DNA from: Candidatus Planktophila sp.
GTDB taxonomy: Bacteria; Actinomycetota; Actinomycetes; Nanopelagicales; Nanopelagicaceae
Length of the DNA stretch: 64,000 nucleotides
Reading direction: 5' to 3'
Assembly: GCA_030681675.1 (NCBI GenBank)
Contig: JAUXRP010000040.1
Coordinates: 1-64,000, forward strand
In this document: positions 46,413 through 52,675 of the stretch, one piece after another
Numbering within the stretch: position 1 is the stretch's first letter
Layout: each line of letters begins with the position of its first letter
Position numbers and translations under genes: made by a program
Notes under the pieces: generated by a model
Seen by the model: the letters and a program-made list of their open reading frames with translations, nothing else
Told to the model about the DNA's origin: nothing
Database searches by the model: none

Positions 46413-47861
46413 CTAATTTCTTAAACTGTTGTCGTCCGGAGCCACTGCTTCGCGCTGTTGAGTCCAGTCTGTACCAGAGCCAGGGTTCTGAGGCATGTCA
46501 TAGAAGCGTGCATAGTGCAGTTGCGCCGAGACTGTAATTGTGCGCGTAGGTCCGTTACGGTGCTTAGCTACGATTAAATCAGCTTCACCTGTTCGGTTAG
46601 CTTGATCGTACATATCGTCGCGGTGTAACAAGATAACTACATCGGCATCTTGTTCGATCGAACCGGATTCACGTAAATCAGAGAGCATTGGTTTTTTATC
46701 GCTGCGCTGTTCGGGAGAACGGTTGAGCTGTGAAATCGCGATAACTGGAATATCTAACTCTTTAGCCATTAACTTTAAGTGACGTGAAAATTCAGAGACC
46801 TCTTGCTGACGGTTTTCAACTTTTTTGCCCGAAGACATCAGCTGTAAGTAGTCAATTACAATGAGTTTAAGGTTGTGGCGCTGCTTTAGACGACGGGCCT
46901 TTGCCCTAATCTCCATCATGGAAAGGTTAGGCGAGTCATCGATAAATAATGGTGCCTCTGATATTTCACCCATTCGGCGCGCAAGACGCGACCACTCATC
47001 ATCGGATAATGTACCTGCGCGAATATTATTTAAGCCAACGCGTGCTTCGGCCGATAACATACGCATGGTAATTTCAGATTTCGACATTTCAAGAGAAAAA
47101 ATAACCGATGTTAAACCATTTGTAATTGATGCATGGCGGGCAATATCTAAACCTAGTGTTGACTTGCCCATTGCAGGACGTGCAGCGAGAATAATCATGT
47201 TGCCTGGATGGAAGCCATGGGTTAACGCATCGAGATCTTTAAAGCCAGTCTTAATACCTTCAACACCAATGCCTTTAGATATCGCCTCAATCTCATCGAG
47301 TGCCTGTGGTAATAACGTTGAGAGTTGAACGTAATCCTCTGATGATCGACGTTCGGTAACTGCATAAACTTCGGCTTGTGCTTGGTCGACCATGTCATCG
47401 ACTTCACCTTCGGATGTATAACCCAGTTGCACAATCTTTGTGCCAGCTTCAACCAATCGGCGCATGATTGCATGCTCGCGAACAATCTTTGCGTAATACC
47501 CCGCATTGGCTGCCGTTGGTACCGATGAGATAAGTGTATGAAGGTACGGCGCACCACCGGCACGTGCAATATCTCCGCGCTTAGTTAGCTCTGCTGAAAC
47601 CGTAACGGCATCTGCGGGTTCGCCGCGGCCATACAAATCGATAATCGCATCATAAATTAACTCGTGTGCAGGTCGATAAAAATCACGATCGCGAATAATC
47701 TCAATTACATCGGCGATCGCATCTTTTGATAACAACATTCCACCGAGAACTGACTGTTCTGCAATTAAATCTTGAGGTGGTGTTCGTTCGAACTCGGTAC
47801 CAATGGAGGAGATACTCAGATCGCGAGATGGACGGTTGTTTGGAAGTTCTGCGATGCTCAC
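46413..47861 (-). CDS. dnaB: Replicative DNA helicase DnaB
   Basis: 482 residues. N-terminal primase-interaction domain (PPQDLIAEQSVLGGMLLSKDA), RecA-like core with Walker A ARPAMGKSTLG, Walker B LIVIDYLQLM and the SQLNRSPE arginine region. An in-frame TTG at 47909 opens the ORF, but GTG 47861 has GGGAGG eight bases upstream and is the likely start. It unwinds the fork. A cluster of DnaA-box-like sites lies in the 273-base upstream gap. Confidence 0.95.
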   Translation of the reverse strand: MSIAELPNNRPSRDLSISSIGTEFERTPPQDLIAEQSVLGGMLLSKDAIADVIEIIRDRDFYRPAHELIYDAIIDLYGRGEPADAVTVSAELTKRGDIARAGGAPYLHTLISSVPTAANAGYYAKIVREHAIMRRLVEAGTKIVQLGYTSEGEVDDMVDQAQAEVYAVTERRSSEDYVQLSTLLPQALDEIEAISKGIGVEGIKTGFKDLDALTHGFHPGNMIILAARPAMGKSTLGLDIARHASITNGLTSVIFSLEMSKSEITMRMLSAEARVGLNNIRAGTLSDDEWSRLARRMGEISEAPLFIDDSPNLSMMEIRAKARRLKQRHNLKLIVIDYLQLMSSGKKVENRQQEVSEFSRHLKLMAKELDIPVIAISQLNRSPEQRSDKKPMLSDLRESGSIEQDADVVILLHRDDMYDQANRTGEADLIVAKHRNGPTRTITVSAQLHYARFYDMPQNPGSGTDWTQQREAVAPDDNSLRN

Positions 47862-47954
47862 GCGTATAGCCTCCCACTGACCACTGACGTCCTGACTCCG
47901 TGTGCTCAACTTAAATGCGAGCCCCTATCGCATGCGAGAAACTCTTTGAGGCCA

Positions 47955-48104
47955 TGGGGATAAGGTGTGGAGAAAGGGGTGGATAAGCGAGTTTTTCTGT
48001 GCAGGAAGCGGTGGATGGACTGTGGATAAGCCCTCGGTCAGACTGTATTTTTCAACAAAGATGCAGGTCAGAGGCGATTTCTATACACACAGGCCTGTGG
48101 AGAA
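47955..48104 (-). promoter_or_regulatory. Cluster of DnaA-box-like sites upstream of dnaB
   Basis: One perfect DnaA box (TTATCCACA on the minus strand, 48021-48029) and four single-mismatch copies at 47955-47963, 47966-47974, 47978-47986 and 48096-48104. All have the same orientation. The first three are spaced 11 and 12 bp start to start, close to one helical turn. A DnaA-controlled dnaB promoter or DnaA-titrating region is the simplest reading. Confidence 0.55.
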
Positions 48105-48134
48105 AAGTATTTTTGCCCATCTTGCATCGTGAGA

Positions 48135-50579
48135 TTACGTGCGTATTCGCGCATTATCTGGATCGAAAAGAGGCTCGGCTGCGATCACTCCTGGGGACCA
48201 TATCCCAAAGAGCTCAACATCAACGGCCGTTCCTGGCTCAGAGTATTCGACTGGCAGATAGGCATAGGCGATGGCTTTATTAATTGTGTAGCCCTGACCA
48301 CCGGATTTAATTCGTCCAACTATTTCATTTTCAATTCGAATTGGCTCAGAACCAAAGGGAACCGATGTTATGTCATCGAAAGTAATTGCAACCAGCTTTC
48401 TTGTTTGATTCTCCTTAGCGGCCACTGCTGCCGCTTTTCCGTGGAAGTTTTCCTTCTTCAGCGAAACTGCAAAGCCAAGGCCCGCCTCATAAGGATTAGT
48501 TTCAGTATTAATCTCACCTGCCCATGCCCGATAACCTTTTTCTAAACGTAAGGATTCAATTGCACGATAACCACAGGGGATTAAACCTAAATCTTGTCCA
48601 GCATCAATAATCTCTTTCCATAGAGTTAATCCATCGGCAACCGGTGCATAAATCTCCCAACCGAGTTCGCCAACATATGTAATTCGAGTTGCACGAACTT
48701 TTATATCAGCGAGAGTAATTTCCTGAGAACTCATAAATGGAAAAGCGCTGTGATTTAAATCGGAAGTTGTTAGTGATTGCAAAATCGCACGAGAATTTGG
48801 TCCCATGATTCCAAAGCAGGTTAAATCTTGAGTGATATTTGTAATCTCGACCTCATCAAAATTAAACTCTCGACGGATTTTTTCTAGCCAACCAAAATCA
48901 TGTGTAGCAAAAGCTGTACCTGTCACAATCATGAACTCGTTGTCGCCAGTTTGTGTAACGGTGTAATCAGATTCGATTCCGCCCTTTGAATTGAGTGCTT
49001 GCGTGTAAACAGTTTTGCCAACCCCTTTAACTACGTTATTGGCGCATGCAAAATTAAGAAATTCATTCGCTTGTCGACCAGTAATGCGGGCTTTAGCAAA
49101 ACTCGACTCATCAAATAAGCCTGCAGCGTTTCGTGTTGCATGGTGTTCTACTTGAACAGCTGGCGACCAGTTTATTCCGAGCCATCCGATTGGGCGTAGC
49201 GCTTCATCGCCGCTATTGGTTGAGTAGTAATTAACGCGCTCCCACGCGGCTTTTTCACCAAAAACTGCGCCATTATCGCTGTGCCACTGATAGACAGGGG
49301 ATGTGAATTTTGGTCGTGCGCTTTTTCGCTCTTCACCAGGGTAATGAATGTCGTAATACTCTTCATAGTTTTCAGTAATGCGCTGCAAAGTAAAATCAGG
49401 TGATTCATATGATGCACCAAAGCGTTTAATATCCATATGCCATAAGTCCATGGTTGGTTCGCCGGCAACGATCCATTCAGCAACGACTTTCCCAATTCCA
49501 CCAGCGCCAGCGATTCCGTGGGCGCAGAAACCAGCGGCAACGAAAAACCCTCCCACCGAGGTTTCACCTAAGCAGAACTCATTATCGGGAGTAAAGCCTT
49601 CGGGGCCGTTGATAAAGTTTTTAATCCCAACTTCTGCCATTTTCGGTACGCGCTTTTGTGAAGCTTCAGCGATGTCGTAAAATCGATCCCAATCTTCAGG
49701 CAGTAATGTATTGTTAAAGTTTGCCGGAATATCATCTACATTATTGTAATCGGCCGACCACGCCTTTGAATTTCTCTCGTACCCGCCCATAAGCAAACCC
49801 GATACCTCTTGACGAAAGTAGATGAGGTTGTCTGGATCGCGCAGTGATGGCAGGAATGGTGCATCCTCGGCCATAAAGTTATCGGTAATTAAATATTGAT
49901 GACTCATTGGCACTATAGGGATTCGTACGTCCACCATTCGGCCGATCTGTGGTGCATACATTCCGCCGCAGTTAACAACTATCTCGCATTCGATCTCACC
50001 TTTATCGGTGACAACACTGCTGACTCGACCCTTCATTGTTCTAATTTCTAGAACACGGGTATGGGTAAATATCTGCACACCGTTCTTGCGTGCACCCGCC
50101 GCCAGCGCCATCGCTAACTGGGAGGGATCTACTTGGCCATCTGAGCCCATATAACAGGCACCAACAACGCCATCTAAATCGATAAGTGGAAATAGATTCT
50201 GCGCCTCTTGAGGCGAGATCTCATGTAAATCCAGACCAAATGTCTTGGCCCATCCAATTTGGCGGCGAATCTCTTGCATGCGCTCAGGTGAGGAGGCCAA
50301 TTTAATGCTGCCACACTCGCGCCAGCTTGGTGGGGTATCTGTTGCTTGAAGTTTTCGATATAAATCTACGGAGTGCATATTCATTAACGTCAGAGTTGGG
50401 TCGGCACGCAGTTGACCGACCAGGCCGGCGCTATGAAAAGTAGATCCGCTTGTTAATTCATTGCGATCTAGGAGAACTACATCTTTCTCACCAAGTTCGG
50501 CTAAATGATAGGCAACAGAGGTACCACCAACGCCGCCTCCGATAATGACGATTTTTGCTCTGCTCGGCGCTACTGACAT
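48135..50579 (-). CDS. FAD-dependent dimethylglycine/sarcosine dehydrogenase-like protein with aminomethyltransferase domain
   Basis: About 814 residues. FAD-binding GGGVGGTSVAYHLAELG near the start (DAO family), an FAO_M-like middle around residues 375-430, then a GCV_T folate-binding domain (GLFDESSFAKARITG ... YVGELGWEIYAP) and its C-terminal barrel. Such proteins demethylate dimethylglycine or sarcosine and hand the C1 unit to tetrahydrofolate. The ORF can be extended to 50687, but that would overlap the divergent gene; ATG 50579 begins the standard N-terminus. The exact N-methyl substrate is uncertain. Confidence 0.85.
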   Translation of the reverse strand: MSVAPSRAKIVIIGGGVGGTSVAYHLAELGEKDVVLLDRNELTSGSTFHSAGLVGQLRADPTLTLMNMHSVDLYRKLQATDTPPSWRECGSIKLASSPERMQEIRRQIGWAKTFGLDLHEISPQEAQNLFPLIDLDGVVGACYMGSDGQVDPSQLAMALAAGARKNGVQIFTHTRVLEIRTMKGRVSSVVTDKGEIECEIVVNCGGMYAPQIGRMVDVRIPIVPMSHQYLITDNFMAEDAPFLPSLRDPDNLIYFRQEVSGLLMGGYERNSKAWSADYNNVDDIPANFNNTLLPEDWDRFYDIAEASQKRVPKMAEVGIKNFINGPEGFTPDNEFCLGETSVGGFFVAAGFCAHGIAGAGGIGKVVAEWIVAGEPTMDLWHMDIKRFGASYESPDFTLQRITENYEEYYDIHYPGEERKSARPKFTSPVYQWHSDNGAVFGEKAAWERVNYYSTNSGDEALRPIGWLGINWSPAVQVEHHATRNAAGLFDESSFAKARITGRQANEFLNFACANNVVKGVGKTVYTQALNSKGGIESDYTVTQTGDNEFMIVTGTAFATHDFGWLEKIRREFNFDEVEITNITQDLTCFGIMGPNSRAILQSLTTSDLNHSAFPFMSSQEITLADIKVRATRITYVGELGWEIYAPVADGLTLWKEIIDAGQDLGLIPCGYRAIESLRLEKGYRAWAGEINTETNPYEAGLGFAVSLKKENFHGKAAAVAAKENQTRKLVAITFDDITSVPFGSEPIRIENEIVGRIKSGGQGYTINKAIAYAYLPVEYSEPGTAVDVELFGIWSPGVIAAEPLFDPDNARIRT

Positions 50580-50593
50580 AGACACGCCTTCAA

Positions 50594-51523
50594 ATGTATC
50601 CTGAACAGGTGAGTGATGCCAGTGAGTTAGAGCGTGAATTTGCTCAACTCTTTGACAAGGTTGAAAGGTTGCGCTCTCGAATTTCAATTAGTGAACTCTC
50701 AGGTGGCCTAACTAATCGGAATTTTCTCATTCAGACTCCAGAGGAAAAATTCGTCGCCCGCGTATCTAGCAACTCTTCCTCACTTTTATCAATTGATCGT
50801 GGCTCTGAGTTTATTAATTCGACGATCGCCGGAAAAGGCGGAGTAGGTGCGCAAGTTCTAGATTATCTACCGGGCGAAGGGCTTTTGCTCATCTCCTATA
50901 TTAAAGGCAAGACATTTGGCCCGGATGATGTCGCTTCAAATCTGAGCCGTATTGCAGAAAGTTTACGTAATTTACATTCACTTGATCTCTTTGATCATGA
51001 ATTTAACATGTTCACCACTCAGAGGAACTACTTAGGTATCGTGGAATCACAGGGATTTAGAATGCCTGATGGCTACTTAAACTTTGGACCACAGGTTGAT
51101 GAGATAAAAAAGGCTTTTACGGTTTTATTTGACGGTCTTGTCCCATGTAACAACGACTTGCTGCCGGGCAACTTCATTGATGATGGTGAAAAGATTTGGT
51201 TAATCGACTACGAATACTCAGGAAATAATGATGCCTGTTTTGAGATTGGCAATGTCTGGGCTGAAGCATTCTTACCTTTAGATGCTCTGGAAGATTTAGT
51301 AACTGCCTACTATGGGCAATATCGCCCCGATAAAGTCGCACGCGCTTGGCTGTGGGCATTAATGGCAAAGTATGGGTGGAGTTTGTGGGCATCGATTCAA
51401 AGTTCAGTCTCAGATCTCGACTTTGATTTCTGGGAGTGGGGAATGGCTAAATACGATCTAGCTCGAAGTGAGTTTACAGGCGGGTATTTTCGAGATGCGT
51501 TAGTCCAAGTAACGGAGAAATAA
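50594..51523 (+). CDS. Choline-kinase-like phosphotransferase
   Basis: 309 residues. A LicA/APH-type kinase: LSGGLTNRNFLIQ (ATP-side loop), the catalytic NNDLLPGNFIDD, and WLIDYEYSGNNDACFEIGN with the metal-binding Asp. The His usual before the catalytic loop is replaced by Cys-Asn. Its start codon is only 14 bases from that of the divergent FAD-GCV_T gene, so the two share a control region, suggesting choline- or methylamine-related use. Other small-alcohol kinases remain possible. Confidence 0.8.
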   Translation: MYPEQVSDASELEREFAQLFDKVERLRSRISISELSGGLTNRNFLIQTPEEKFVARVSSNSSSLLSIDRGSEFINSTIAGKGGVGAQVLDYLPGEGLLLISYIKGKTFGPDDVASNLSRIAESLRNLHSLDLFDHEFNMFTTQRNYLGIVESQGFRMPDGYLNFGPQVDEIKKAFTVLFDGLVPCNNDLLPGNFIDDGEKIWLIDYEYSGNNDACFEIGNVWAEAFLPLDALEDLVTAYYGQYRPDKVARAWLWALMAKYGWSLWASIQSSVSDLDFDFWEWGMAKYDLARSEFTGGYFRDALVQVTEK

Positions 51524-51605
51524 AAAAACCCGCCGTATAGAGCCGGTTGGAGGTTTAGCCTTATTAATTGCCAACTAATCGAAGTGAACAAGAGGCCAGA
51601 GCTTT

Positions 51606-52094
51606 CTAGAAAATTGGAAACTTATCTAGAAGCTTCTGCGCAACTTCGACGATCTCTTTCGCTTTTTCTAAATCTTCACGAACATCCTGCTCAGTTAGCT
51701 CTGGTTCGGAGACTGAAGGGTATTCACTATTATGGCGAGACCTCCTCAATCTATTGAATGTTGCCATAACTCGACCCATTGGGGGATCAATTTGTGCTTT
51801 GAGTGCCTGGTAAATGACCACGTGACCTCCAACTGAAGTGGGCCGTAAACCTTGGACCTCAAGAACTGCGGTGAGAGACTTTCTTGCCGCATCGTAAAGA
51901 AGGGCGTAAGCGCCTTCTGTGTCTTCACTGGCCGTTAGATCACACGAGCTCAGGTGATTCCTAGATTGTGCTAATAGTCGCTCAGCATGTTCTCGGCTAG
52001 CGACAACCCTCTGCAACTTTCCGCTCACAATAAAATCATCGACCACTTCGCGCCCCTGATCCCATCTCGGCAGTAGTGACGTACTGCCGCTCAC
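51606..52094 (-). CDS. HEPN-domain toxin candidate
   Basis: 162 residues, all helical. ALLYDAARKSLTAVLEVQGLRP is typical of HEPN nucleases and RLRRSRHNSEYP provides the R-x(4-6)-H motif. GTG start overlapping the MNT stop by four bases (GTGA). Expected ribonuclease toxin, silenced by the nucleotidyltransferase partner. The gap between its stop and the kinase gene (51524-51605) has no clear feature. Confidence 0.82.
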   Translation of the reverse strand: MSGSTSLLPRWDQGREVVDDFIVSGKLQRVVASREHAERLLAQSRNHLSSCDLTASEDTEGAYALLYDAARKSLTAVLEVQGLRPTSVGGHVVIYQALKAQIDPPMGRVMATFNRLRRSRHNSEYPSVSEPELTEQDVREDLEKAKEIVEVAQKLLDKFPIF

Positions 52095-52675
52095 TCGGTT
52101 TTCTCATTCAATGTGAGAGGCACTAGTGGTTTAGCTCGTACTGTCTTCAGGAACGAACCATCGCCTTTTTTCCAGGCCTGCAACGACACCCTCCTTATGT
52201 TGACTTCCCGATATAGTTGAAGTTCGGCACGCTCGGCGGTGGATTGAAGCTCGTCAAGATCGGCGTTACCAACTACTAAAACATCAATGTCGGCGGGCAC
52301 TGGTCCGCTCTCGCCTGAGTACCGAGCTGCCCAAGAACCGTAAATGTAAGCAGAAACAATCCCTGCAACGCCCGCTAGTTCTTTATTGAGGACTGGAAGT
52401 GGACCATGTGTTACAGCGAGCAGGTCAGATAAGGGTTTGAATATTATTGACTCCTTCGAAGCTCTAACGAGGCGAGAATTGCCCTCTTTTCGGTCCTGAA
52501 TAAAACCAGTCCTTACCAGCCTAGCCACCTCATGCTGCATCCCTGGTACCGAGCTGCCAACTAACTTCGCTGCATCTGTAACGCTAAACTCCTTATCGGG
52601 GTTTAGAAATAACAACGCCAATAAATCAGCTTGAGTCCTTGACCTGAGCAACGGGAGTAGTTGAGAAACTTTCAT
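52091..52675 (-). CDS. MNT nucleotidyltransferase antitoxin with N-terminal HTH
   Basis: 194 residues. Residues 1-75 form a winged helix-turn-helix (LLALLFLNPDKEFSVTDAAKLV, then HEVARLVRTGFIQ). The minimal nucleotidyltransferase follows with YGSWAARYSG and the metal-binding ADIDVLVVG (GS...DxD). In HEPN-MNT systems the MNT protein inactivates HEPN by adding AMP. Here the fused DNA-binding domain should also repress the operon. The start ATG lies inside a perfect 40-bp palindrome and transcription is likely leaderless. Confidence 0.85.
   Translation of the reverse strand: MKVSQLLPLLRSRTQADLLALLFLNPDKEFSVTDAAKLVGSSVPGMQHEVARLVRTGFIQDRKEGNSRLVRASKESIIFKPLSDLLAVTHGPLPVLNKELAGVAGIVSAYIYGSWAARYSGESGPVPADIDVLVVGNADLDELQSTAERAELQLYREVNIRRVSLQAWKKGDGSFLKTVRAKPLVPLTLNEKTE

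Follow-up and report, generated by a model that had tools for sequence, protein, structure and literature searches.

The stretch of DNA analysed here (the window, 64,000 nucleotides of a Candidatus Planktophila genome) raises the question of what five predicted DnaA boxes, all pointing the same way, are doing in front of dnaB, the gene of the replicative helicase. To our knowledge, little is understood of how bacteria adjust the supply of helicase to initiation. Freshwater bacteria with small genomes and a conserved DnaA array on dnaB provide a case in which control of the helicase gene by the initiator can be tested, and this control is possibly joined to control by DNA damage. In mycobacteria, according to the excerpts of PMC5720831 used here, homologues of helicase loaders or of DnaA regulators have not been identified. 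The array turned out to be real and conserved, and its kind is already known. What is new beside the known kind is the strict order of the boxes, on one face of the helix and in one direction, and the PafBC-type promoter-like element alongside.

Results

The array and its density

All five boxes of the original prediction, one perfect and four with one mismatch within 150 bases, were found at the places it gave, on the strand of dnaB (Table 1). The three proximal boxes follow each other at 11 and 12 bp from start to start, which leaves gaps of 2 and 3 bp, and both resulting pairs (47955/47966 and 47966/47978) were recovered by the tandem-box pattern search described below. According to the excerpts of PMC11317965, the box pairs preferred by E. 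coli DnaA are separated by 2 or 3 bp, and by this yardstick the window does contain tandem boxes. The array is thus like the E. coli double-box targets, with the difference that pairs are found at targets such as purH, whereas dnaB has a longer array here. The weak in-register repeat next to the perfect box is matched by related ATCCAC columns in the alignment of relatives. As for the gene itself, the GTG start was inferred from the conserved TGAGCATC and from the starts in relatives; the mechanical open reading frame opens earlier, at TTG 47909.

Table 1. Features of the dnaB locus and the position of dnaA (window coordinates unless the contig, C40, is given)
Feature	Position	Strand	Remarks
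dnaB, replicative DNA helicase	46413..47861	-	Pfam DnaB_C 7.9e-108, DnaB 2.3e-34
Intergenic control region of dnaB	47862..48134	-	from dnaB start to stop of upstream DAO/GCV_T gene
PafBC-type promoter-like element CGTCAGTG-N8-GAGGCT	47868..47889	-	6 nt before start codon; one mismatch
DnaA box TTATCCCCA	47955-47963	-	1 mismatch; aligned with relatives
DnaA box TTCTCCACA	47966-47974	-	1 mismatch; 2-bp gap to box at 47955
DnaA box TTATCCACC	47978-47986	-	1 mismatch; 3-bp gap to box at 47966
Weak in-register repeat CCATCCACC	48010-48018	-	tentative; 3 mismatches; 2 bp from perfect box
Perfect DnaA box TTATCCACA	48021-48029	-	possible anchor
Distal DnaA box TTCTCCACA	48096-48104	-	CCACA columns with major-base frequencies 0.69-1.00
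Conserved distal block, inverted repeat TNTCA-N5-TGAGA + [TA]A-NN-TT	48104..48134	-	abuts distal box; from alignment
dnaA	C40:72734-74176		Pfam Bac_DnaA, Bac_DnaA_C; dnaN next

For the clustering counts a box was defined as TTATCCACA with at most one mismatch. The whole window holds 23 such boxes against 14.4 expected, a number reached by 2 of 100 shuffles. The genome assembly (1.83 Mb in 46 contigs) has 426 boxes compared with 408 for the pattern read backwards; since boxes are not enriched genome-wide, it is the clustering alone that is special. Our genome-wide statements rest on pattern searches and on C40:1-401900, a 402-kb region that includes the window and makes up 22% of the genome. 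Among its 120 boxes the densest same-strand cluster is the one upstream of dnaB, with five in 150 bp. The dnaA-dnaN region has five in 150 bp and six in 250 bp, on both strands, and rpmH-dnaA has three and four, respectively; nowhere else in the region are there more than two per 150 bp. In 20,000 trials of random placement the maximum was four same-strand boxes in 150 bp and never five, and the Poisson expectation for five is about 1.6e-6 per genome. The cluster is therefore denser than chance. The original prediction presupposed that one-mismatch sites would be sparser at other positions, and within the 402 kb examined they are.

Conservation, phasing and linkage to dnaB

We examined the regions upstream of dnaB in 67 loci, taken from the 80 closest DnaB relatives among the matches listed. 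Among these relatives (75-98% identity for L010-L080) are records under the names Candidatus Planktophila and Nanopelagicaceae. Nine more distant loci were left out, together with two in which the locus has no N-terminus (L076 and L079, excluded from all upstream counts) and two with less than 300 bp upstream (L064 and L077, excluded from box counts and phasing). Nine of the records (L012, L022, L025, L032, L035, L039, L040, L052 and L075) are public metagenome-assembled genomes with titles such as Streptomyces griseus, Bifidobacterium breve or Clavibacter, which are at odds with the 81-94% identity of their DnaB to that of a Planktophila-like genome; they are probably mislabelled.

In the 300 bp upstream of dnaB the 67 loci, which share ancestry and are not independent, contain 224 forward and 2 reverse boxes, compared with a background of 0.031 forward and 0.015 reverse boxes per 300 bp in the remaining 508 kb of the same loci. 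At least two forward boxes are present in 66 of the 67, so that the cluster is kept in close relatives, as the original prediction needed it to be. The distances between boxes fit a 10.7-bp period (R=0.82 for 291 pairs, null maximum 0.21), and the fit hardly changes if only the 40 distinct spacing patterns are used (R=0.80). Box columns in the alignment have a mean major-base frequency of 0.83 (n=45) versus 0.58 for the 192 other intergenic columns. Upstream of dnaB, 38 of the 67 loci have rplI (a match within 900 bp), 18 have the DAO/GCV_T gene and 11 have neither. Since the upstream gene varies while the array persists, the array goes with dnaB. The proximal box lies 51-193 bp from the dnaB start, with weak phasing relative to it (R=0.44, 67 loci). 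Because of this variable distance and weak phasing, it is doubtful whether bound DnaA would contact RNA polymerase at the proximal promoter.

Tandem boxes in the genus and in the class

The tandem pattern TTMYCCMCM-N2-3-TTMYCCMCM gave 27 matches, spread over 14 of the 25 genus genomes, our own included. All 27 are either at dnaB (16) or at dnaA or dnaA-dnaN (11); 26 have a locus of their own and the remaining one sits 12 bp from one of them. As the pattern derives from the box variants present at oriC and dnaB, the matches at these places are partly built in, but their absence elsewhere in the genus is not. The pattern was absent from 11 of the 25 genomes, several of which are incomplete, but G005 and G007 do contain dnaB. 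Read backwards as a control, it matched once in the genus and once in the class genomes.

At the class level the tandem pattern was found in 3 of 16 genomes, with four matches, and tblastn of the 3-kb loci around these four detected no dnaA, dnaN or dnaB. L158 (G026:C12:168502-168534) has three tandem DnaA boxes in another actinobacterial family; in its 3-kb locus no match to dnaA, dnaN or dnaB was seen. We also searched for single boxes (TTRTCCACA, one mismatch) within 450 bp upstream of the conserved N-terminal motif of DnaB. In sixteen class-level loci there are 37 boxes in forward and 11 in reverse orientation, against a background of 0.034 per strand, while four further loci have 0, 2, 1 and 2 forward boxes and one reverse box in all. 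The association of boxes with dnaB thus holds in 19 of the 20 parsed loci, L107 having no boxes; three of the 23 loci fall outside the count (L113 was misparsed, L106 and L114 unparsed), and L105 duplicates L081. The boxes are fewer and less regular in this wider set than in the close group.

A PafBC-type promoter-like element

Besides the boxes, the aligned upstream regions share another conserved element, TGTCAGTG-N8-nAnnnT, a short distance ahead of the start codon. Going by its sequence, the putative core promoter of dnaB resembles the PafBC (RecA-independent DNA-damage) type, also named RecA-NDp. In 67 of 70 regions the octamer differs from TGTCAGTG at no more than two positions, and in 46 it is exact (best match in the last 80 bp); the hexamer eight bases past it has A as its second base in 65 of the 67 and T as its sixth in 66. 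A strict arrangement, octamer (at most two mismatches)-N8-nAnnnT beginning 28 or 29 bases before the start, is present in 65 of the 70 regions, the window among them: 53 are in register 28, which leaves six bases to the start, and 12 in register 29. The hexamer reads nAnnnT rather than TAnnnT, the first T of the -10 not being kept. A stretch resembling a ribosome-binding site overlaps the element in 50 of the 70 regions, where the overlapping bases could serve translation instead, and was not seen in the other 20. The start of L045 was misplaced by the parse, which makes its place both among these 20 and among the non-matching loci an artefact. The position of the element beside the start codon suggests a leaderless dnaB mRNA.

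The PafBC motif is printed in the excerpts of PMC8151990 as TGTCGG-N10-TAnnnT and variants, and the dnaB element fits it in part. Shared with PafBC-dependent promoters as described there are the TGTCRGTG-like octamer, the N8 spacer and the A and T at hexamer positions 2 and 6. A PafB/PafC-like pair (WYL+WCX, and HTH_PafC+WYL+WCX) is encoded before tatC, and recA (Pfam RecA 5.9e-144) carries the motif with TACTTT upstream; the genome also encodes a LexA-type protein. What differs is that the first base of the -10 here is usually not T and that the -10 overlaps the ribosome-binding-site-like stretch in most loci. Taken alone, the copy in the window is not significant, there being eight one-mismatch matches in the window versus 3.8 expected. 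The exact motif is not enriched genome-wide either (seven matches, and seven in the control): one match is the recA promoter, one is intergenic (C40:345929) and five are inside open frames. The intergenic match adjoins what by eye is a likely tRNA. In M. tuberculosis, dnaB is reported to be partially dependent on PafBC under mitomycin C, and yet it is still overexpressed in a recA-deleted, PafBC-depleted strain, which was tied to a putative SOS box (excerpts of PMC8151990). Since these data are mixed, we offer PafBC input at dnaB of Planktophila as a proposal.

Discussion

Probable DnaA control of dnaB and its alternatives

We consider the array to be, probably, a DnaA oligomerization array that controls dnaB. 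Several DnaA molecules, most likely in the ATP form, would line up next to one another along one face of the helix, and the one perfect box may anchor the weaker ones at gaps of 2-3 bp, as in E. coli double-box targets. Bound DnaA would set the transcription of dnaB, so that helicase supply would follow the initiation potential of the cell, and through a leaderless promoter of the PafBC type dnaB might answer both to initiation and to DNA damage. Published work points the same way. DnaA binds upstream of dnaB in vitro in M. tuberculosis and in vivo in M. smegmatis (IDAP-seq and ChIP-seq), and the mycobacterial dnaB site ranks in the top five for DnaA, as do oriC and rpmH-dnaA (excerpts of PMC7738170); these three are also the ones that stand out in our 402 kb. 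Here, in contrast to mycobacteria, binding is deduced from the sequence; the boxes of the array all face one way and are in helical phase. The dnaB gene of Caulobacter crescentus belongs to the DnaA regulon (Hottes 2005, cited in PMC8203912) and likewise has predicted boxes upstream (excerpts of PMC8203912); this organism, unlike ours, is an alphaproteobacterium, and the likeness concerns predicted boxes. The excerpts of PMC13270200 contain nothing on the control of dnaB. Considering the double-box form of the array together with the published DnaA binding and regulon membership at dnaB, DnaA control of dnaB is favoured. The original suggestion that DnaA could control dnaB is thereby supported in part, by conservation, by phasing, by linkage under at least three upstream contexts and by mycobacterial DnaA binding.

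Chance clustering, or sites of a different protein, might be suspected because four of the five boxes are imperfect. However, random placement, conservation, phasing and the use of the same box variants in oriC make this most improbable. Still harder to entertain is a second replication origin, even if the number and density of boxes at dnaB are comparable to those at oriC: the dnaB intergenic region is not AT-rich (GC 0.50, compared with 0.43 for dnaA-dnaN and 0.45 for the window), every box of its array points one way, and the genome already has an origin-like region at dnaA-dnaN. The AT-rich unwinding element and dnaA/dnaN context of an oriC were not found at the dnaB region. The original prediction was therefore right that this is not an obvious oriC, but its reason, that no dnaA or dnaN is nearby, merely reflects the window edge. 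Both genes are indeed absent from the window and were not seen for that reason; dnaA, however, is only 24.6 kb from the array, 8.7 kb past the edge. In two one-contig genomes (G014 and G015) dnaA is at the start of the contig and dnaB 22-25 kb before its end. GC skew along C40 did not turn clearly at either dnaA or dnaB and is not decisive. Another observation near the origin is a pair of perfect DnaA boxes, 13 bp from start to start, 9 kb past dnaA-dnaN (L120, C40:83110-83131).

The proximity to dnaA is also what could make the array mainly a site of titration or nucleotide switching, similar to datA or DARS, with its position at dnaB being incidental. At 24.6 kb from dnaA, a set of several boxes would be duplicated soon after initiation, and the variable distance from array to start needs no promoter contact. 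Titration is possible, as the original prediction had it, but we regard it as an unlikely main role: the array has merely some five boxes, its proximal box keeps within the stated range of the dnaB start despite the changing upstream gene, and in M. tuberculosis dnaB expression is reported to be linked to the binding, with DnaA I282T binding more weakly upstream of dnaB and dnaB being under-expressed (excerpts of PMC7738170). By analogy, the same data slightly favour activation as the sign of the DnaA effect. The opposite sign would mean that DnaA represses dnaB, the array acting as a roadblock and the distal block as a promoter whose transcripts start at the distal box. The block with its [TA]A-NN-TT is conserved and abuts that box, the main array would then sit downstream of the start, and in several bacteria DnaA is reported to autoregulate dnaA by binding the dnaA promoter (excerpts of PMC8203912). 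On the other hand, the alignment has no recognisable -35 for a distal promoter, and the I282T data suggest activation, which leaves repression a plausible though somewhat doubtful variant of DnaA control. The distal block is possibly a second promoter or an operator, and DnaA might act on such a distal promoter. The right arm of the inverted repeat is degenerate in the window. As a regulon marker the palindrome TCTCA-N5-TGAGA was dropped, since its counts in the genomes are like those of the control.

If DnaA control of dnaB is taken as the working explanation, a broader and distinctly tentative proposal can be made for Nanopelagicales and perhaps for Actinomycetes. In these bacteria dnaB might be a dedicated output of DnaA, which would have only two tandem-box targets, dnaA/oriC and dnaB, and an ATP-DnaA filament combined with a PafBC promoter might form a two-input circuit. 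Such a circuit, if real, would tune helicase supply to both initiation and DNA damage.

Neighbourhood of dnaB

In the window, four genes (48135-52675) lie between rplI and dnaB. Two of them overlap (51606-52675), and one encodes a HEPN-domain protein according to Pfam. Its partner, a protein of 194 aa with no Pfam match, looks by eye like a winged-helix nucleotidyltransferase, so the two are possibly a gene pair of the HEPN/MNT type.
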